A stretch of 49,744 bases of DNA from positions 1 to 49,744 of the forward strand of contig JAGCGH010000079.1 in assembly GCA_017649705.1 (NCBI GenBank). The letters are read 5' to 3'. This DNA is from a bacterium. Its GTDB lineage: Bacteria > Auribacterota > UBA3054. Below, piece by piece: positions 12,128 to 42,656 of the stretch (position 1 is its first letter; each line of letters starts with the position of its first letter). The notes below the pieces were generated by a model. It saw nothing but the letters and a program-made list of their open reading frames with translations. It ran no database searches and was not told the DNA's origin. Both the position numbers and the translations under genes were made by a program.

Positions 12128-12310
12128 TTAACCCTGCGGTGTTCGCGATCGCTCAGAATGCGTCTGAACCGACATTCGCTTATGTATCGGGGCCAAGACA
12201 AGGTGGTTGTGCAGGCCCGTCTTCGAGCGGGAAGCCTTAAAGCTTTGCGAGCCTTATTTTTAGAATAACGGGTTTAGACCAAAAAGCCAACGGCACACGC
12301 AGGGCCCCTT
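12128..12310 (+). ncRNA. ssrS: 6S RNA (SsrS), regulator of RNA polymerase
   Basis: 6S RNA mimics an open promoter and sequesters housekeeping RNA polymerase. Evidence: a closing helix CCCTGCG (12132-12138) with CGCAGGG (12298-12304), extended inward by GTG/CAC around one bulged A; GAAGCCTTAAA at 12231, the same as a conserved stretch I recall from Escherichia coli 6S RNA, followed by a GCGA as there; and a core of about 175-185 nt, the family size. Short complementary segments outside (12101-12108 with 12316-12323; 12112-12116 with 12311-12315) may lengthen the terminal helix. Context agrees: 6S lies before the cyclo-ligase gene in many Proteobacteria and near rarA in many Firmicutes, and both genes follow here. 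Exact ends are uncertain. Confidence 0.8.
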
Positions 12311-33201: not shown

Positions 33202-36200
33202 ATGTCGAGCAACAATTTTATGGATCCGAGGACTCCTGGGGAACAGTATTTGCTTGGGATCCGTTATTTGGAAGAGCAGAATTATGAACTGGCTGTGAAG
33301 TGGCTGGAGAAGGCCGCTCAGAACGGAGTGGTGAGAGCGACGTATCAGCTGGGGATGTGCTATGCGGAGGGGAAGGGAGTAGAAGTCGATAAGAAAACAG
33401 CTTTTGTGTGTATGAGGAGAGCCGCGGAGTGCAGGGTGCCGGAGGCGCAGTATCAGTATGGGATGATGCTTTTAAGGAGGGTGGATATTAAGGCGGCTGT
33501 AAGATGGCTGAAGGAAGCCTCTCGGAACGGAGAGGAGAAAGCGACGTGTCAGTTGTGGGAGTGCTATGCGGACAGGAGCGACCTGGGAGTAGACGATGAG
33601 ACAGCTTTGGAATGTTTAAAGGCGGCCGGGGAACAGGGAAACGCGGAAGCACAGTATCTGTATGGAATGGTTTGTTTAGAGGGAATGGATCTTAAAGGGG
33701 CTATGATATGGATGAAGAAAGCCGCCTGGAACGGAGTGGAAAAAGCTAGGGAGCAATTGAGGAAATGGGAAGGATTGGAAGTCGATGAGGGAAGCGCTTT
33801 AGCGGAAGCTCAGTATCGGCTGGGGATAAGTTATTTGGAAGAGGGGGATCATGAGAGGGGTGTTAAGTGGCTGGAGGAAGCCGGCCGGAACGGAGTGGTG
33901 AAAGCGACGTATCAGCTGGGGATGCGCTATGCGGAGGGGAAGGGAGTCGAAGTCGATAAGGAAACCGCTTTTTTGTGTTTTAAGAAAGCCGCGGAACAGG
34001 GAGTGGCGGAAGCCATGTATCAGTATGGGATGGGTCTTTTGGAGAGGATGGATCTTAAGGAGGCTGTAAGATGGCTGGAGAATGCCGACCGGAACGGAGT
34101 GGAAAAAGCAAGGGAGCAATTGAGGAAATGCTATGGGGATAGGGTGGTCTCTATCCCGGAAGCCGAGTATCGGCTGGGGATGAGTTGTTTGGAAGAGGGG
34201 AATTATGAGTTGGCTGTGAAGTGGCTGGAGAAAGCCGCCCAGGACGGAGTGGCGATGGCGACGTATCAGTTGGGGTTGTGCTATGCGGAGGGGAAGGGAG
34301 TCGAAGTCGATAAGGCAACCGCTTTTTTGTGTATAAGGAGAGCCGCGGAATTAAAGGTGCCGGAAGCACAGTATCAGTATGGGATGATTCTTTTGGAGAG
34401 GATGGATCTTAAGGAAGCTACGAGATGGCTGAAGGAAGCCGCCCGGAATGGAAATGAAAAAGCAAAGGAGCAGTTGAGGAAATTGTATGGGAATGAGGAA
34501 GGATCGGAAGCCGCTATTCCGGAAGCTCAATATCGGCTGGGGATGAGTTGTTCGGAAGAGGGGAATAATGAGATGGGTGTTGAGTGGCTACAGGAAGCCT
34601 CCCGGAACGGAGTGGTGAAAGCGACGTATCAGCTGGGGGTGTGCTATGCGGAGGGAATAGGCGTCGAAGCCGATAAGGAAAGCGCTTTTAGTTATTTTGA
34701 AAAAGCCGCGGAAGATCGTTTGCCGGAAGCTCAGTATTCGCTGGGGATATATTATATGGAGGGGCAGGATAATAAAGCGGCTGTAAAGTGGCTGCGGGAA
34801 GCCGGCCGGAACGGAGTGAAAGAGGCGGCGAAAAAACTGATGCGGTTTTATGCGGACGGGAAAGGCGTGGGAGTAGACGATGAGACAGCTTTGGAATGTT
34901 TAAAGGCGGCCGGGGGACAGGGAAACGCGGAAGCGCAGTATCAGTTAGGGCTGTGGTATTTGAAAAAGAGAGACCCTGAGGCTGCCCTTCGATGGTTTGA
35001 AAAGGCCGCGGAACAGGGAATGGCGGATGCCCAGTATCAGGCGGGTCTATTATATGAAAAAAAGGATGCGTCTATGGCCGCTTACTGGTATGGAAAAGCC
35101 GCCGAGCAGGGGTCGGTCGAGGCGATGGATAGGCTCAGCGAATTATACTTCTCGAAGAAAGCCGGCAATGCTTCCGAATTTTTGGGGCGTATGTTCAATT
35201 TTATAAAAGAGACAGCAAATGCTGGGAACGAAAGATCCCAATACTATCTCGGCATGTGTTATGCCGAAGGGAAATGCGTTGCACAGGATTGGGAAGCTGC
35301 TTTTGGCTGGTTTGAGAAAGCCGCGGAACAGGGAGTGGCGGAAGCCATGTATCAGGTGGGCCAGTGTTACGGATTGGGAAGGGGAACAAATAAAAGTTTT
35401 AAGAAAGCTATCGAGTGGTATAAAAAGGCCGCGGAGAAAGACAGCGTCGACGCCGTAAAAAACCTGATCTATATTTATTCTTCCGCCCGCGGCGATCGTG
35501 AAGAACTGCGGAAAGCGATAGAACGTTTGAAAGAATGGGCGAATAAGGATAACGCGGAAGCGCAGTGTTTTCTCGGCGTGTGTTATGTGGAAGGAAGAGG
35601 CGTAGAAGCCGATCAGGAGAAAGCCTTTAAATTGTTTGAAAAAGCGGCCGGGAAGGAAGTGGCAGAAGCCCAGTACAGGCTGGGATCGTGTTATGAAAAA
35701 GGGGAAGTTGTTCACAAAGATCCGGGGAGAGCGCTCGAATGGTATATGAAAGCGGCGCAACAAGGAAACGTTAAAGCGCAATATCGGTTTGGCTTGCTGT
35801 GCTTAACATCCCGCGGCAAATTCGCTTCGAGGCAGGGAACGGCAATCGACTATTTAACAGCCGCTGCCAATAAAGGTCACGCGCAGGCTATGTGCCTGCT
35901 TGGAAAATACTACATGTACAGATGCCGCACGGAAGGAGCCTGGAAAGACGCTTATAAGTTGTTTTTAGGCGCCGCTAAAAAAGGCGTGACGGAAGCGAAA
36001 TATCAACTGGCTCTGTGCTGTTTGGAAAGCAAAGAGAATTGGGGATCGGCGTTCGATTGGTTCGAGGATTATCTGCGAGACGCTAAAAAAACGTTCCCGG
36101 AGCGCGAAGCGTTTATAAAAACTTGCTTTTCCGCCATGAAAGGCTCCGCGGAAGACCAATATCAGCTGTTTAAGCTTTATACGGAAGGAAAAGGCGTAAG

Positions 36201-36594
36201 GAAAGATCTTAGGGCGGCGTTCGCGTGGGTTATGAGAGCGGCGGAGCAAGATCATATCAAGGCTCAATTTGATCTCGCCAAATGTTATGTGAAGGGAATA
36301 GGCGTAAACGCGAATTGGGAAGCCGCTTTTGAATGTTTTAAAAAACTGGCGGAGAAAGGCATTCCGAGAGCGCTGTTCCTTCTGGGCTATTGCTATAAAA
36401 ACGGTTACGGCGTAAACGCGGACGAGAGAAAGTGGTTGGAGCTTCTGGAAAAAGCCGCCGCTAAAGGCGACAAAACAGCTATAAGATATGTCGAGAGCGA
36501 GAAGCGGCGGATGGCGGGAAGAGCAGGGGCGCTCTATGCGGAAAATGATGATTTTCTCGGTTGGAACGACCCGTATTGGGGTTTGAGTAATTAA
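33202..36594 (+). CDS. Giant Sel1-like repeat (TPR-type) protein
   Basis: The 1130-residue protein starts at ATG 33202 with GAGGG upstream. It consists almost entirely of about 28-30 Sel1-like repeats of around 36 residues, each with forms such as AQYQLGMCYAEGKGVEVD followed by AAFxxFxKAAEQG. The repeats make an alpha-solenoid for protein binding. There is no signal peptide or recognised catalytic domain; the last about 30 residues (ending in Asn/Asp/Trp-rich sequence) depart from the repeat. Neighbouring repeats are alike at the DNA level too, which suggests recent internal duplication. The binding partner is unknown; Sel1 proteins occur in signalling, secretion and host-interaction systems. 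Confidence 0.85.
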   Translation: MSSNNFMDPRTPGEQYLLGIRYLEEQNYELAVKWLEKAAQNGVVRATYQLGMCYAEGKGVEVDKKTAFVCMRRAAECRVPEAQYQYGMMLLRRVDIKAAVRWLKEASRNGEEKATCQLWECYADRSDLGVDDETALECLKAAGEQGNAEAQYLYGMVCLEGMDLKGAMIWMKKAAWNGVEKAREQLRKWEGLEVDEGSALAEAQYRLGISYLEEGDHERGVKWLEEAGRNGVVKATYQLGMRYAEGKGVEVDKETAFLCFKKAAEQGVAEAMYQYGMGLLERMDLKEAVRWLENADRNGVEKAREQLRKCYGDRVVSIPEAEYRLGMSCLEEGNYELAVKWLEKAAQDGVAMATYQLGLCYAEGKGVEVDKATAFLCIRRAAELKVPEAQYQYGMILLERMDLKEATRWLKEAARNGNEKAKEQLRKLYGNEEGSEAAIPEAQYRLGMSCSEEGNNEMGVEWLQEASRNGVVKATYQLGVCYAEGIGVEADKESAFSYFEKAAEDRLPEAQYSLGIYYMEGQDNKAAVKWLREAGRNGVKEAAKKLMRFYADGKGVGVDDETALECLKAAGGQGNAEAQYQLGLWYLKKRDPEAALRWFEKAAEQGMADAQYQAGLLYEKKDASMAAYWYGKAAEQGSVEAMDRLSELYFSKKAGNASEFLGRMFNFIKETANAGNERSQYYLGMCYAEGKCVAQDWEAAFGWFEKAAEQGVAEAMYQVGQCYGLGRGTNKSFKKAIEWYKKAAEKDSVDAVKNLIYIYSSARGDREELRKAIERLKEWANKDNAEAQCFLGVCYVEGRGVEADQEKAFKLFEKAAGKEVAEAQYRLGSCYEKGEVVHKDPGRALEWYMKAAQQGNVKAQYRFGLLCLTSRGKFASRQGTAIDYLTAAANKGHAQAMCLLGKYYMYRCRTEGAWKDAYKLFLGAAKKGVTEAKYQLALCCLESKENWGSAFDWFEDYLRDAKKTFPEREAFIKTCFSAMKGSAEDQYQLFKLYTEGKGVRKDLRAAFAWVMRAAEQDHIKAQFDLAKCYVKGIGVNANWEAAFECFKKLAEKGIPRALFLLGYCYKNGYGVNADERKWLELLEKAAAKGDKTAIRYVESEKRRMAGRAGALYAENDDFLGWNDPYWGLSN

Positions 36595-37619: not shown

Positions 37620-38204
37620 TTAGTAGTCTTCTTCTTCTTCGTCCTCGTCATCCTCGTCGTCGAAACTGAATTCGGTGGCGCTGAAGAAGCCGCCGCGGGA
37701 GCTGCTGCCGGAATAGAAGGTGAAGTCGCCTATCCGGGTCCCGGTGGCGTCGAAGGAGGTGCCGCGGGAGCTGCTGCCGGAAATGAAGGTGAAGTTGCCT
37801 ATCTTGGTCTCGGTGGCGTCGAAGGAGCTGCCGTCGGAATTGCTGCCGGAAATGAAGGTAAAGTCGCCTATCTTGGTCTTGGTGGCGTCGAAGGAGGTGC
37901 CGTCGGATCTGCTGCCGGAATAGAAGGTGAAGTCGCCTATCTTGGTCTCGGTGGCGTCGAAGGAAGTGCCGTCAGAATGGCTGCCGGAGTAGAAGGTGAA
38001 GTCGCCTATTTTGGTCTTGGTGGCGTCGAAGGAAGAGCCGTTGGAGTTGTAGCCGGAGTAGAAGGTGGTGCCGCCTATTTTTGTCTCGGTGGCGTCGAAG
38101 GAGGAGCCGTCGGAGTTGTAGCCGGAATAGAAGGTGGTGCCGCTGTAGGCGGCGAAGGGGGAGATGATGAGGAAGATTATGAAAAGCGTTGCGGGGAGTT
38201 TCAT
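37620..38204 (-). CDS. Secreted 23-residue-repeat protein (probable beta-solenoid)
   Basis: From ATG 38204 the protein has 194 residues: a signal peptide (MKLPATLFIIFLIISPFAAYS), then about seven tandem units of 23 residues on the pattern DFTFYSGSxSDGTSFDATxTKIG, and a very acidic C-terminal tail (DDEDDEDEEEEDY). The regular Thr/Ser/Gly/Phe spacing suggests a beta-solenoid on the cell surface. ATG 38204 is chosen for the signal peptide and an extended -10 box (TGCTAAAAT) about 36 bases upstream; a longer frame to 38378 exists but has no such support. A degenerate paralogue lies at 32.75-33.1 kb. Confidence 0.7.
   Translation of the reverse strand: MKLPATLFIIFLIISPFAAYSGTTFYSGYNSDGSSFDATETKIGGTTFYSGYNSNGSSFDATKTKIGDFTFYSGSHSDGTSFDATETKIGDFTFYSGSRSDGTSFDATKTKIGDFTFISGSNSDGSSFDATETKIGNFTFISGSSSRGTSFDATGTRIGDFTFYSGSSSRGGFFSATEFSFDDEDDEDEEEEDY
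37663..38150. repeat. Seven tandem 69-base repeats (coding)
   Basis: The units encoding the 23-residue repeats are nearly identical in DNA, with a core such as GAAGGTGAAGTCGCCTATCT on the plus strand. Such arrays change copy number by slippage or recombination. The same unit, more diverged, recurs at about 32.8-33.07 kb. Confidence 0.85.
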
Positions 38205-38346: not shown

Positions 38347-38355
38347 TGGTATAAT
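38347..38355 (+). promoter_or_regulatory. Extended -10 promoter of the queuosine-salvage operon
   Basis: TGGTATAAT. Transcription should start close to 38361, directly before the first base pair of the leader hairpin. Confidence 0.65.
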
Positions 38356-38360
38356 GGACG

Positions 38361-38412
38361 CTGGCAGTTCGAAACCATCCTGCCTTGGGTAACCTAAAAC
38401 AAAACTACGGAG
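38361..38412 (+). promoter_or_regulatory. Candidate preQ1 riboswitch-like leader
   Basis: A stem GGCAG (38363-38367) with CTGCC (38380-38384) encloses a 12-base loop starting TTC, and an A-rich tail TAAAACAAAAC runs into the GGAG ribosome site (38409-38412). Small hairpin, C-rich loop and A-rich tail merging with the Shine-Dalgarno resemble class I preQ1 riboswitches, which fold into a pseudoknot and hide the ribosome site. It differs in having about ten extra bases (TTGGGTAACC) between stem and tail. The downstream queuosine-related genes support the call, but loop-tail pairing is short and unproved. Confidence 0.45.
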
Positions 38413-38421
38413 ACATAGACC

Positions 38422-39123
38422 ATGCTTAGGTATGGGATTATCAAGGAAAAAGATCCCCGGGAGATAGTGCTTCTCAGGGGGAAGGGGTGCTTTTATAAGA
38501 AGTGCGCCTTTTGCGATTATCATCTGGACGCCTGTCCGGATGATGACGCGAACGTGGTTTTGAACAGGGAGGTCTTGAAGCAGGTAACGGGGGTGTACGG
38601 GAACCTGGAGGTCATCAACAGCGGGTCTTTTCATGAACTTGGGGAAAGAAGCCTTGCTTTGGTAAGGGAGACTGCTAGGGAAAAAGGGATAAGGGTGCTG
38701 CATTTCGAGGCGCATTACCTCGTTAGGGATAAGATCGCGGAGCTTAGGGAATTCTTTTCCGGGACAGAAGTCAGGATGAGAGTGGGGCTGGAGAGCTTCG
38801 ACGAGGAACTTAGGGAAGGCTATCTGAAAAAAGGCATGCCGGGCGTTAGTCCGGAAGAGGTGGCCGGGTATTTTCAGGAAGCGAATTTTTTGGTGGGGGT
38901 AAAGGGACAGACCGTGGATTCGATGCGGCGGGATGTGGAATTGGGGCTTAAGTATTTCAAGAGGATAACGCTTAACGTAATGTGCGACAATACCACTTCG
39001 GTGAAGCCCGACGGGGAGGTTATCGCTAAGTTTATGGAAGAGATCTATCCGAAGTATGTTTTGGACGACAGGGTGGATATCCTTGTTCACAATACGGATT
39101 TTACCGTGGGGACGCCTGAATGA
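38422..39123 (+). CDS. Radical SAM protein, QueL-like (queuine lyase)
   Basis: The 233-residue protein has an unusual cluster motif CFYKKCAFCDYH (Cys23, Cys28, Cys31: CX4CX2C instead of CX3CX2C). It also has EVINSGSFHEL (about 71-81), HFEAHY (about 100) and VGLESFDEELREGYLKKG. These features match, as far as I recall, the small radical SAM enzymes (QueL) described in gut bacteria such as Clostridioides difficile, which release preQ1 from queuine. The gene overlaps a YhhQ-type transporter and follows a preQ1-riboswitch-like leader, so the pair would import and recycle queuosine precursors. Another Elp3-like radical SAM function remains possible. Confidence 0.65.
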   Translation: MLRYGIIKEKDPREIVLLRGKGCFYKKCAFCDYHLDACPDDDANVVLNREVLKQVTGVYGNLEVINSGSFHELGERSLALVRETAREKGIRVLHFEAHYLVRDKIAELREFFSGTEVRMRVGLESFDEELREGYLKKGMPGVSPEEVAGYFQEANFLVGVKGQTVDSMRRDVELGLKYFKRITLNVMCDNTTSVKPDGEVIAKFMEEIYPKYVLDDRVDILVHNTDFTVGTPE

Positions 39124-39836
39124 CTAACGAACTGCTGCTAATTTTTACTCTGCTGTTTACTTACGGATCAGCATTGATGGCTTACAAGCTCTTCGGAAAG
39201 AGCGGGCTTTACGCTCTGACGCCCATAGCGACCATCGTGGCGAATATCGAGGTGCTTTTGGTCATCAAGGCCTTCGGGTGGACGCAGACGCTGGGGAATC
39301 TTCCTTTCGCGGTGACGTTTCTAATAACGGACATATTGTCGGAGTGCGAGGGGAAGAAATACGCCAACAAGGCGGTCTATATCGGGATATTCTCCACGAT
39401 CTTCTTCTTGGTGGTCAGCCAGGTCTGGCTTTTGTACACGCCGGACGAGACGGATCACTGCATGCAGGCTTTCAGGACTATATTCAGCAATTCCCCCAGG
39501 GTCATTATGGCCTCCCTTTTGGTGTACGCCATAAGCCAGCTGACGGACGTCTGGCTTTACCATATGTGGTGGGATCTTACGGAGAGGCTCTGCGGGAACA
39601 AGAGGAGGTTCCTGTGGTTCAGGAACAACTTCTCCACGCTTATCAGCCAGTTTATAAACAATGTCTTGTTCACGCTTTTGGCTTTTTACGGAACCTTTGA
39701 TCTGAAGACGGTCTGGTCCTTCATCGTGTCCAGCTACATTATCTTCATCATAACCTCTTTGCTGGACACGCCGTTCGTTTACGCGGCAAGGTATATCCAC
39801 GACAGGAAAGAGGCGGCCAAGGCGGCCCTTTCGTAA
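39120..39836 (+). CDS. Queuosine precursor transporter (YhhQ/VUT family)
   Basis: YhhQ-family inner-membrane proteins import preQ0/preQ1, or queuine in some species. The 238-residue protein has about six membrane helices and family features such as YKLFGKSGLYALTPIATIVANIE (near the N-terminus), FLITDILSECEGKKYANKAVYIG (about 62-84) and RNNFSTLISQFINNVLFTLLAFYG towards the C-terminus (each noted here by its first residues and position). The start overlaps the preceding stop as ATGA, giving tight coupling to the QueL-like gene. Substrate is inferred from that neighbour: queuine import followed by conversion to preQ1. Confidence 0.88.
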   Translation: MTNELLLIFTLLFTYGSALMAYKLFGKSGLYALTPIATIVANIEVLLVIKAFGWTQTLGNLPFAVTFLITDILSECEGKKYANKAVYIGIFSTIFFLVVSQVWLLYTPDETDHCMQAFRTIFSNSPRVIMASLLVYAISQLTDVWLYHMWWDLTERLCGNKRRFLWFRNNFSTLISQFINNVLFTLLAFYGTFDLKTVWSFIVSSYIIFIITSLLDTPFVYAARYIHDRKEAAKAALS

Positions 39837-39854
39837 GGGGCGTCTTTTGCCTTG

Positions 39855-39887
39855 GGCGGGGGGCTTTTGCTCCCCCGGCTTTTTTAT
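39855..39887 (+). terminator. Rho-independent terminator of the queuosine operon
   Basis: G-rich stem (GGGGGGC with GCTCCCCC) followed by TTTTTT. Pairing register is slightly ambiguous. Confidence 0.75.
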
Positions 39888-39941
39888 TGGGGGCTGGGGG
39901 AGAGGCTTTTTTGTTGTTCCCTTAAGTTTCGATGCTGGTTT

Positions 39942-39986: not shown

Positions 39987-42656
39987 ATGAAGAACAATCT
40001 TTTCAAGGCTGCGCTCTTTTTGGCGCTTTGCACTCTTTGCGCTTCCGCTTACGAAAGGGAGCTTTTGCGCGTCGGTTTCGAATCTGACGAAGGGTACGAA
40101 CTTGGTACGATTATCGGCCAGAACGGCTGGACGGCCAAGGACCCCCGGCACAATTACGAAACCTCCAAGAACGACGTGACGGACGGCCTGGGCCCGGACG
40201 GCTCCCGCGCCATGCACCTGGACGGCAAAAACAACTTCGTGGGCAAGAATTTCGACATAAGCGAAATGGAGTTCGACAAGGATACGGAATATCTGGTCTG
40301 GTCCTTCAAGCTGCGGCCCTTCGAGGATACCGCCGGAGCGGGCGGCATCGACAGTTACTTCAAGCTGGGCGTGGACGACGGCGCCAGCCATGCCTACGGG
40401 CCTCCCTCCGTCTTCGAGACCAAGAACTGGAACGGCGAGAGCTTCCGCGTGTACGGCTACGATCTCATTGAAAACCAGAACAAGTGGCTCATATTGCCTT
40501 ACGAGTTCCCTTACGAATATAACGATATCGCGGTGACCATGGACATGGCCAAGTATCATATCATCTCCTGGCAGGTGGGGAGCCTCGTGACCAACGTCTC
40601 CATGGCCTTCACCAGCCAGAAGAAGCAGGTGCCGAACTGGATGTCCTTCGAAATGTACGGCGATATCGACGACGTGGTCTTGAAGGCTGTCAGCAAGCCG
40701 GCGCCTCCGGGAGCCAAGCTGGAGACTTACACCAAGAAGATCGAGCTTAGCCGCGAACCCAAGGATTTCTATTTCACCGTGCGCAACACCGGCACCAACA
40801 AGGTCAATTACGTGGTCAGCTTCGAGGGCGACCCGGGCTGGGTGGAAGCGGTCAACGGCGAAGGCTCCATCGACGGGGAAGGCGAGAAGGAACTGCAGTT
40901 CAGGCTGCTCAGGGAAGACATGGGCGACTTCTATTACCGCAGCGTCATCAGAGTGGACGGCGGCATGGGCGGCGTCCTGGAAGTCCCGCTGTCAGTGCAG
41001 TCCGGGCTGGTCTTCTACCAGGAGGATTTCTCCGGGCCGTACATGACGATAGGCGAAATAAGCGGCCAGGACCGCTGGTATACCGACAGGAGCGGAACCA
41101 TCGACGGCGGCATCGGAAACGGCATGGCTTACAACAGTTTTGTGGTAACCAACATGCCCTTTGCCATAGACGGGGAATTAGCCAGGATCATCTGCTCCGG
41201 CGGCTACTACGGATACGAATATACCGTGGACACGCCCTCCAACCTCATCGTGGTGGTGGACTTTGATTTCTACTGGCCCAGCGACAGCCAGGCGGCCAAC
41301 TTCGACGTGACCGGCGAACTGTGGAAGCACATTCCCTTCACGATGAACTTCAGGAAGAGCGAGGGCGACACCATGTTCAGGGCCACCAAGGCGCAGGGCA
41401 TCGATCTCTCCGGCGGCCTGGGCTCCAACCAGTACGAATGCGACGTGTGGCACCACTTAAGGTACTCCATGGACTTCCGCCAGCAAGTGGTGAATTACAT
41501 CGAAATGGACGGGGACCGCTACGAGTTCGGCGACGAGATGCCGCTGCAGACTTACGGAGGCAAGGTGTTCAGAACGCTGCATACCCTGAACTTCGGCTCC
41601 GACGGCGTGCAGAAGAACCCCGACCAGATCGACTACGTTTCCGGCGTCTGCATCGACAACCTCCTTATCTGCGAGGAGGAGCGCGAAAACAAGCCGCACA
41701 TGACCGGCCCCAGCTACGTCTCCATGAGAACGGACGATTCCTGCGACGTCATTTTGAAGAATTCCGGCGCCCAGTCCTGCGAGTTCGAGGCGGAAGTTTT
41801 GGACGACGCTCCGCTGGTGGTCTCGCCCTCTACGGGCGTTTTGTCCGAGTCTTTCACGGTCAACGTGGCCATCACTTCCGAACCCGATCCGGGCTATTAC
41901 CGCTACTACGTCAGGTTCTTCTCCGAGACCGGCGGCTGCCTGACCACCATGGTCTCCTGCGCCAGGGGCGGAATATATTACACCGCGGACTTCGAGGAAC
42001 CCTATTTCCATCCGGGCAACATCAACGGCCAGGACGGCTGGACGCTGGATCCGGAGCAGAGCGTCTCCAATCTCTGGGCCTTCGTGGAGGAGATCGACGG
42101 ACAGTACGCCCTGCGCTACTATGACTGCGGCGGCTACAGCGGCTCTCTTATTCCCGCTTACATCCCGGCCTACCAGAAGTTCACCTTCTCCTGCAAGATC
42201 TATGTCCCGTCCGAAGGGCCCGACCAGGCCATCCTTTATGTCAAGCAGTTCGGACATAATCCGCTGCAGGAATTCTGGGTCTGGCGCGACAATGAAAGTG
42301 GCTGCGCCTGGCTCTACGTCAAGAACTACGAGGAACTCGAGCTGCCGGCGGCGCCTCTGGACGAATGGTTCGATTTCTCCTACACCCTGGACATGGGCTT
42401 TGAGAAGTGGCAGACAACGGACATTACCTTCGGCGACTGCGTGACCAACGTCACTCCCTTGGAGATCTATTTTGAGAACGATAGGGACGGCGATCCGGTG
42501 ACCGCGCTCTGCATCTGCTCCAGCGGAGACAAGGATGAGGAAGTTTACGCCAACATCTATGTGGACGACATCCAGGTCTTCGACGCCACGGTGCCGGAGC
42601 CGGCTGTGATAGCGCTGCTGGCCGGTCTCGTTGCCCTGCTTCTCAGAAAGTGGTAA
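39987..42656 (+). CDS. PEP-CTERM surface protein with three LamG-like repeats
   Basis: The 889-residue protein starts at ATG 39987, with AGAAGAGG six bases upstream and a signal peptide (MKNNLFKAALFLALCTLCASA). A frame opening at 39852 would place this signal peptide internally and is rejected. Three long repeats each open on a similar pattern: VGFESDEGYELG...GQNGW (about 25), EDFSGPYMTIGEISGQDRW (about 346) and ADFEEPYFHPGNINGQDGW (about 670), typical of LamG/concanavalin-like domains in PVC bacteria. Between them are beta-sandwich stretches. The C-terminus is a textbook PEP-CTERM signal: VPEPAVIALLAGLVALLLRK. Likely a glycan-binding envelope protein; the ligand is unknown. Confidence 0.82.
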   Translation: MKNNLFKAALFLALCTLCASAYERELLRVGFESDEGYELGTIIGQNGWTAKDPRHNYETSKNDVTDGLGPDGSRAMHLDGKNNFVGKNFDISEMEFDKDTEYLVWSFKLRPFEDTAGAGGIDSYFKLGVDDGASHAYGPPSVFETKNWNGESFRVYGYDLIENQNKWLILPYEFPYEYNDIAVTMDMAKYHIISWQVGSLVTNVSMAFTSQKKQVPNWMSFEMYGDIDDVVLKAVSKPAPPGAKLETYTKKIELSREPKDFYFTVRNTGTNKVNYVVSFEGDPGWVEAVNGEGSIDGEGEKELQFRLLREDMGDFYYRSVIRVDGGMGGVLEVPLSVQSGLVFYQEDFSGPYMTIGEISGQDRWYTDRSGTIDGGIGNGMAYNSFVVTNMPFAIDGELARIICSGGYYGYEYTVDTPSNLIVVVDFDFYWPSDSQAANFDVTGELWKHIPFTMNFRKSEGDTMFRATKAQGIDLSGGLGSNQYECDVWHHLRYSMDFRQQVVNYIEMDGDRYEFGDEMPLQTYGGKVFRTLHTLNFGSDGVQKNPDQIDYVSGVCIDNLLICEEERENKPHMTGPSYVSMRTDDSCDVILKNSGAQSCEFEAEVLDDAPLVVSPSTGVLSESFTVNVAITSEPDPGYYRYYVRFFSETGGCLTTMVSCARGGIYYTADFEEPYFHPGNINGQDGWTLDPEQSVSNLWAFVEEIDGQYALRYYDCGGYSGSLIPAYIPAYQKFTFSCKIYVPSEGPDQAILYVKQFGHNPLQEFWVWRDNESGCAWLYVKNYEELELPAAPLDEWFDFSYTLDMGFEKWQTTDITFGDCVTNVTPLEIYFENDRDGDPVTALCICSSGDKDEEVYANIYVDDIQVFDATVPEPAVIALLAGLVALLLRKW

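Follow-up and report, generated by a model that had tools for sequence, protein, structure and literature searches.

The window, the whole 49,744-nucleotide stretch of bacterial DNA analysed here, most probably contains a two-gene queuine-salvage operon under the control of a class I type I preQ1 riboswitch. We consider this combined reading the best explanation of the locus and give it a probability of roughly 0.86. A preliminary description of this DNA had named a stem, a loop, an extra segment, a tail, a ribosome site and two genes, all of which lie where it placed them, and its main idea, a preQ1 switch on a queL operon, appears to be right. That said, the arrangement is not new, because a precedent exists in C. 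difficile (PMC11477304) and because both the module and its aptamer are common in gut Bacillota. The truly unusual part of the leader is the extra segment. The elements of the locus are the following.

38347-38355, + strand: extended -10 promoter element TGGTATAAT, called from sequence and conservation.
38363-38384, + strand: aptamer stem-loop, with P1 formed by GGCAG (38363-38367) and CTGCC (38380-38384); it matches our R2 model and Rfam PreQ1.
38368-38379, + strand: 12-nt aptamer loop TTCGAAACCATC (UUCGAAACCAUC).
38385-38394, + strand: extra segment TTGGGTAACC.
38385-38397, + strand: insert at the P1-L3 junction, UUGGGUAACCUAA, predicted to form a 5-bp hairpin, or GG-GUAA-CC with a GNRA tetraloop.
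38396-38407, + strand: A-rich L3 and 3′ strand of P2, AAAACAAAACTA (AAAACAAAACUA), running into GGAG.
38409-38412, + strand: Shine-Dalgarno sequence GGAG, conserved in relatives within the genus.
38422-39123, + strand: queL, encoding a predicted queuine lyase of 233 aa with a radical SAM CX4CX2C motif; matches PDB 6P78.
39120-39836, + strand: yhhQ/QPTR, encoding a queuosine-precursor transporter of 238 aa; matches TIGR00697 and PF02592.
39842-39902, + strand: terminator-like hairpins with T-runs, in excess over shuffles, closing the two-gene operon.

The leader aptamer as a whole spans 38363-38412, the ATG of queL is at 38422, and the two genes share an ATGA, with the yhhQ start at 39120 and the queL stop at 39123. 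Downstream of the operon there are 8 terminator-like matches, compared with 0.6 in shuffles.

Both gene assignments of the preliminary description stand. In the PDB, the QueL-like enzyme matches a single entry, queuine lyase 6P78 (E=1.5e-48). The match covers residues 1-230 and therefore the full length of the enzyme, whose radical SAM cysteines C23, C28 and C31 align with those of 6P78 in the same CX4CX2C arrangement. A Pfam search of QueL returned no family, and its sole NCBIfam match, to the archaeosine radical SAM lyase RaSEA, stays below threshold (37.5 of 212 bits). The YhhQ-type transporter, which overlaps queL as had been described, lies far above both curated cut-offs (TIGR00697, 170.2 bits against 50.95; PF02592, 159.3 bits against 27.2). 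That the cargo would be queuine, and not preQ1 or preQ0, we infer from QueL alone. Could the transporter instead import preQ0 or preQ1, with the radical SAM protein acting on another substrate and no queuine salvage at all? E. coli YhhQ does move preQ0 and preQ1 (PMC10622847), but the full-length similarity of QueL to a solved queuine lyase, the near-universal pairing of queL with yhhQ (directly after queL in 79/80 related loci) and the C. difficile precedent (PMC11477304) all argue against this explanation, and we consider it very unlikely.

The closest published counterpart of the proposed salvage operon is queK-qrtT-queL of C. difficile, for which a preQ1-I riboswitch has been reported (PMC11477304); the same paper credits the salvage pathway to Yuan et al. 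2019. In both cases a class I preQ1 riboswitch would control a queL salvage operon, so that the switch would sense the product of its own operon's enzyme. The two systems differ in their import and processing genes, with the ECF component QrtT and the nucleoside hydrolase QueK in C. difficile and a YhhQ/QPTR transporter without queK in the operon of the window. Unlike that of the C. difficile operon, the window aptamer also bears an insert.

The window contains several other features. A 6S RNA is found at 12128-12309 (+) with 61.1 bits, above the gathering score. A Sel1/TPR-like repeat protein of ~1130 aa is encoded at 33202-36594 (+), and a large predicted secreted protein, with a C-terminus like a PEP-CTERM sorting signal (VPEPAVIALLAGLVALLLRKW), at 39987-42656 (+); an NCBIfam search of the latter gave no match. 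At 37672-38136 there are 6.7 copies of a 69-bp unit, FTFYSGSNSDGTSFDATETKIGD, within a minus-strand ORF. Related arrays of 66-69 bp occur upstream of queL in one of the related loci, L011, which also carries 4.7 copies of a 33-bp tandem repeat, GGGTAAAACATGAGCCACTTTTAGGGGTTAAAT, directly upstream of its queL promoter (positions 2767-2919 of that locus). L003 and L004 show the 33-bp unit ahead of queL as well, and it is absent from the window.

How well does the leader fit a preQ1-I aptamer? At the gathering score of Rfam, neither the window nor any of 40 related loci yields a preQ1 riboswitch, and we therefore used a purpose-built covariance model, R2, made from 39 Bacillota queL leaders with zero sequences from the genus of the window. 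When the whole window is scanned with R2 the leader is the best match, at 32.9 bits (E=3.2e-7), with the next best at E=0.28. The proposed resemblance to class I preQ1 riboswitches is thus borne out by R2 and by the presence of all contact bases (see below), but a search of the leader against Rfam falls short, the best family being PreQ1 (RF00522) at 19.6 bits with a gathering score of 39. Insert-free relatives from Bacillota (L014, L025, L054 and L086) are also sub-threshold, at 25-28 bits against the same 39. Across the phylum, RF00522 returned only chance-looking matches at E<=1, the best with 23.1 bits. Plain folding of the leader is no better than that of shuffles; this is uninformative, since the second helix of the pseudoknot is outside what such folding scores.

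The marks of type I are present in the leader, namely UU at 38368-38369, UC at 38378-38379 and CUA at 38405-38407, with positions A30, C31, U32 and A33 at 38404-38407 in the numbering of PMC8752633. The bases that touch the two stacked ligands in the crystal structure given there can all be found in the window (U6, U7, C8, G9, A11, A12, U16, C17, A28-A30, C31, U32 and A33). The leader shares with the type I aptamer of Carnobacterium antarcticum (PMC8752633) a 12-nt loop, UU after P1, UC before the 3′ strand, an A-A-A-C-U-A tail and every ligand-contact base. It differs in the P1-L3 insert, in A10/C34 in place of the C10-G34 pair, and in a Shine-Dalgarno sequence that begins about two bases further downstream. 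In the type I consensus, as a 2024 review gives it (PMC11625349), a short L3 directly follows P1 and no further helix intervenes, whereas the window has 9-10 extra bases at this junction. We treat the leader as a type I variant because the pocket and the tail are intact despite these bases.

An alignment of orthologous leaders, which the preliminary description had proposed, adds evolutionary evidence for P1 and gives a mixed picture for P2. The P1 pair 5-25 is AU in 34 relatives, UA in 7 and GC in 3 and is never unpaired, a compensatory change, and the outer P1 pair varies between AU, CG, GC and UA. The A-A-A-A-C-U-A tail is invariant across 44 sequences. In P2, A12-U32 is invariant in relatives; in contrast, pair 10-34 is standard in only 54.5% and is A-C in the window. 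The P1 of the window has 5 bp, where 6 is usual. Taken as a whole, the comparison supports homology between the leader and the widespread preQ1-I type I aptamer, with preQ1 as the presumed ligand.

We identified 80 related loci by scanning genome contigs with a QueL protein alignment, mostly from gut Bacillota. A motif almost identical to that of the window lies upstream of queL in 68/80, and L040 and L071 (the latter cut by a contig end) add an aptamer by eye and by model. With an aptamer before queL in 70/80 loci, the leader is clearly conserved in relatives, as its reading as a riboswitch had called for. In the gut Bacillota leaders (L014-L090) the aptamer resembles that of the window nearly letter for letter and precedes the same gene pair. 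Unlike the window, with its insert and short spacing, these leaders run straight from P1 into YUAAACAAAACUA with no insert, have long spacing and are mostly likely to act by transcriptional control. The queL-yhhQ pair with a type I aptamer, widespread in gut Bacillota and sub-threshold in Rfam, is newly recorded here. Pairs of queL and yhhQ also occur outside Bacillota, in a Treponema (L027), a Bacteroidales MAG (L061) and Helicobacter cholecystus (L077); an aptamer was sought in these three loci and their genomes and was not found.

Within the genus, the 49-nt segment GCAG...GGAG is the same in three other genomes bar one T/C change inside the insert. The other leader bases vary across the four genomes, and queL identity among them goes down to 82-87%. 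This contrast bears on whether the aptamer has degenerated and lost its ability to switch, leaving the operon constitutive. One could point to A10 and C34, which are unable to form the 10-34 pair, to the short P1, and to the relatives in Treponema, Helicobacter and Bacteroidales that carry queL-yhhQ without an aptamer. However, degeneration sits poorly with near-identity of the segment where neighbouring leader bases vary and with an intact set of pocket bases, and pairing of G34 is dispensable for type I regulation according to the 2024 review (PMC11625349). We regard a degenerate aptamer as unlikely and a working riboswitch as the better reading.

The insert adds 9-10 bases between P1 and the A-rich tail compared with the relatives. 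Two folds are possible, UUGGG-UAA-CCUAA adjoining P1, or a stem of GG-CC capped by a GUAA tetraloop. Within the genus the insert varies at one base alone, where GUAA becomes GCAA and a GNRA loop is kept; this U/C change in the loop cannot confirm the pairing of the stem. The hairpin of the window is weak, at -1.5 kcal/mol, with 58/200 shuffles as good. A pairing of the loop ACC with GGGU of the insert was considered as a possible competing fold; the loop ACC is conserved in relatives that have no insert.

Junction hairpins of this kind can also be found elsewhere. We surveyed Clostridia genomes with the model R1, which gave matches in 160/391, together with eight chosen genomes. Among the matches listed, all three longer than 50 nt (L140, L170 and L171) combine a type I loop and tail, like those of the window, with a hairpin at the same P1-L3 junction. 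Their stems are GAAGAUG...CAUCUUC, GAAUCAU...AUGAUUC and CAGAUU...AAUCUG, of 6-7 bp, the 7-bp one of L170 being the most stable, and two of the three begin right after P1, with that of L171 starting one base later by the fold. They differ from the window in the length and the unrelated sequence of the hairpin, and in the genes they control, which are queT-type (queT then queF in L140) and not queL-yhhQ. When each linker is simply shuffled, a stem as good as the observed one arises in 1-5% of cases, and in 2.6% for the window. Since the insert sequences are unrelated, they look like independent acquisitions, and finding hairpins at the same junction in three Clostridia aptamers raises the interest of the weak one in the window. 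A scan of viral contigs for insert-bearing aptamers found none.

The main competitor on this point accepts the riboswitch and takes the insert to be a functionless, unstructured spacer. There is a model for this in the type III preQ1-I aptamers, in which P1 and the poly-A stretch are joined at this very place by a linker that varies in length and shows poor conservation; the E. coli representative was crystallised with that linker shortened (PMC10622847). The E. coli switch, like that of the window, controls yhhQ and has extra sequence between P1 and poly-A. It differs in a short pyrimidine-rich loop, AC before the 3′ strand of P1 and a single ligand, and its linker is not described as a hairpin. 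Membership of type III was rejected for the leader, as its loop has 12 nt and ends in UC. The weakness of the window hairpin also favours a spacer. A spacer would not, however, be expected to remain otherwise invariant in four genomes in which queL has diverged so far, and each of the other three long inserts examined folds into a stem beside P1. We lean somewhat against the spacer, while taking it seriously.

With its junction hairpin, we take the leader to be a structurally new form of an established riboswitch type, as far as a word search of the 2024 preQ1 riboswitch review (PMC11625349), which builds on a 2014 survey, can tell: no description of such a hairpin came up there. A broader proposal is that several lineages have independently gained a P1-L3 hairpin as a recurrent, structured addition to their type I aptamers, where it stacks beneath P1 and adjusts folding or the range of sensing. 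It would then be a fourth architecture beside types I-III, missed in part through the Rfam threshold. We hold this proposal tentatively, at a little short of even odds.

How might the operon work? YhhQ/QPTR would import queuine and QueL would cleave it to preQ1, from which TGT, QueA and QueH, whose genes lie elsewhere in the genome, would rebuild queuosine in tRNA. Placed right where the mRNA would begin, the riboswitch would repress the operon when preQ1 is plentiful. One preQ1, or two stacked by analogy with the type I structure, would close an H-type pseudoknot whose tail stops two bases short of the Shine-Dalgarno sequence, and queL translation would fall. Translation of yhhQ, coupled to that of queL by the ATGA overlap, would fall with it. 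The insert would most likely fold into a small hairpin that stacks beneath the 5-bp P1 and does not alter the ligand pocket. Of this scheme, the identities of the genes, the homology and conservation of the aptamer, the pathway context and the position of the insert are observed; the ligand, repression, translational coupling, the insert hairpin and its stacking are what we infer.

The transcription start is placed by the extended -10 element, which would put it at ~38362-38363, the first base of P1. A generic sigma-70 scan for two hexamers found no promoter, and the call therefore depends on the extended -10 and its conservation, with TGRTATAAT kept in four genomes, 6-7 nt before P1. GGAG begins two bases after the last conserved aptamer base and is itself 9 bases ahead of the start codon. 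In three relatives from the genus, ACUA lies only 14-15 nt ahead of the start codon and no terminator intervenes, therefore control should be translational in the genus. The Bacillota loci have 35 to 343 nt to the next gene and a terminator-like hairpin before it in 43/65, thus control there is probably transcriptional. Because of the A-C at 10-34, the Shine-Dalgarno sequence is probably masked only in part or by an indirect route, as has been reported for the Carnobacterium type I switch (PMC11625349).

The pathway context fits a need for salvage. The genome of the window encodes TGT, QueA and QueH, and across the genus QueA is found in 8/8 genomes and QueH in 7/8. A clear QueC, the enzyme required for making preQ0, was found in 0/8, the best matches (E 2.7e-7, mostly partial) being read as paralogues, whereas the other seven genomes of the order have QueC at E 1e-71 to 1e-78. 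An assembly gap is an unlikely explanation, as QueC is missing in all eight, each with a completeness of 83-93%. The retention of TGT, QueA and QueH without a clear QueC is as expected if salvage supplies preQ1, and the host, a gut bacterium, appears unable to make preQ1 de novo.

The operon itself is patchily distributed. Within the order, queL is confined to the genus of the window (5/8 genomes), and those five genomes also carry yhhQ, for which the rest of the order gives a single weak match. Across the order, the R1 model detects one aptamer in every one of the four genomes in which the start of queL is present, and none anywhere else. The operon is not universal in the genus, since 3/8 genomes have neither gene; these three (G001, G003 and G007) have QueA and no clear QueC, and may either be incomplete or rely on a different importer of preQ1. 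In a QueL tree the sequences of the genus fall among those of Bacillota and at a great distance from those found elsewhere in their own phylum, which suggests that the genus may have gained queL by transfer. This is a suggestion only, from a tree whose program warns of long branches and whose rows were picked as best matches.

Few riboswitches are as small as the preQ1-I aptamer, which is a standard model of RNA folding. Natural additions of a helix at the base of P1 would provide a ready comparison for the effects of coaxial stacking on ligand sensing, and the P1-L3 junction may be a site where preQ1-I RNAs tolerate grafts. Our results also suggest that a large and coherent set of gut riboswitches falls below the preQ1 threshold of Rfam. 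For the genus of the window, the apparent loss of a clear QueC coincides, in 5/8 genomes, with what would be a regulated module for recycling queuine that resembles that of gut Clostridia.
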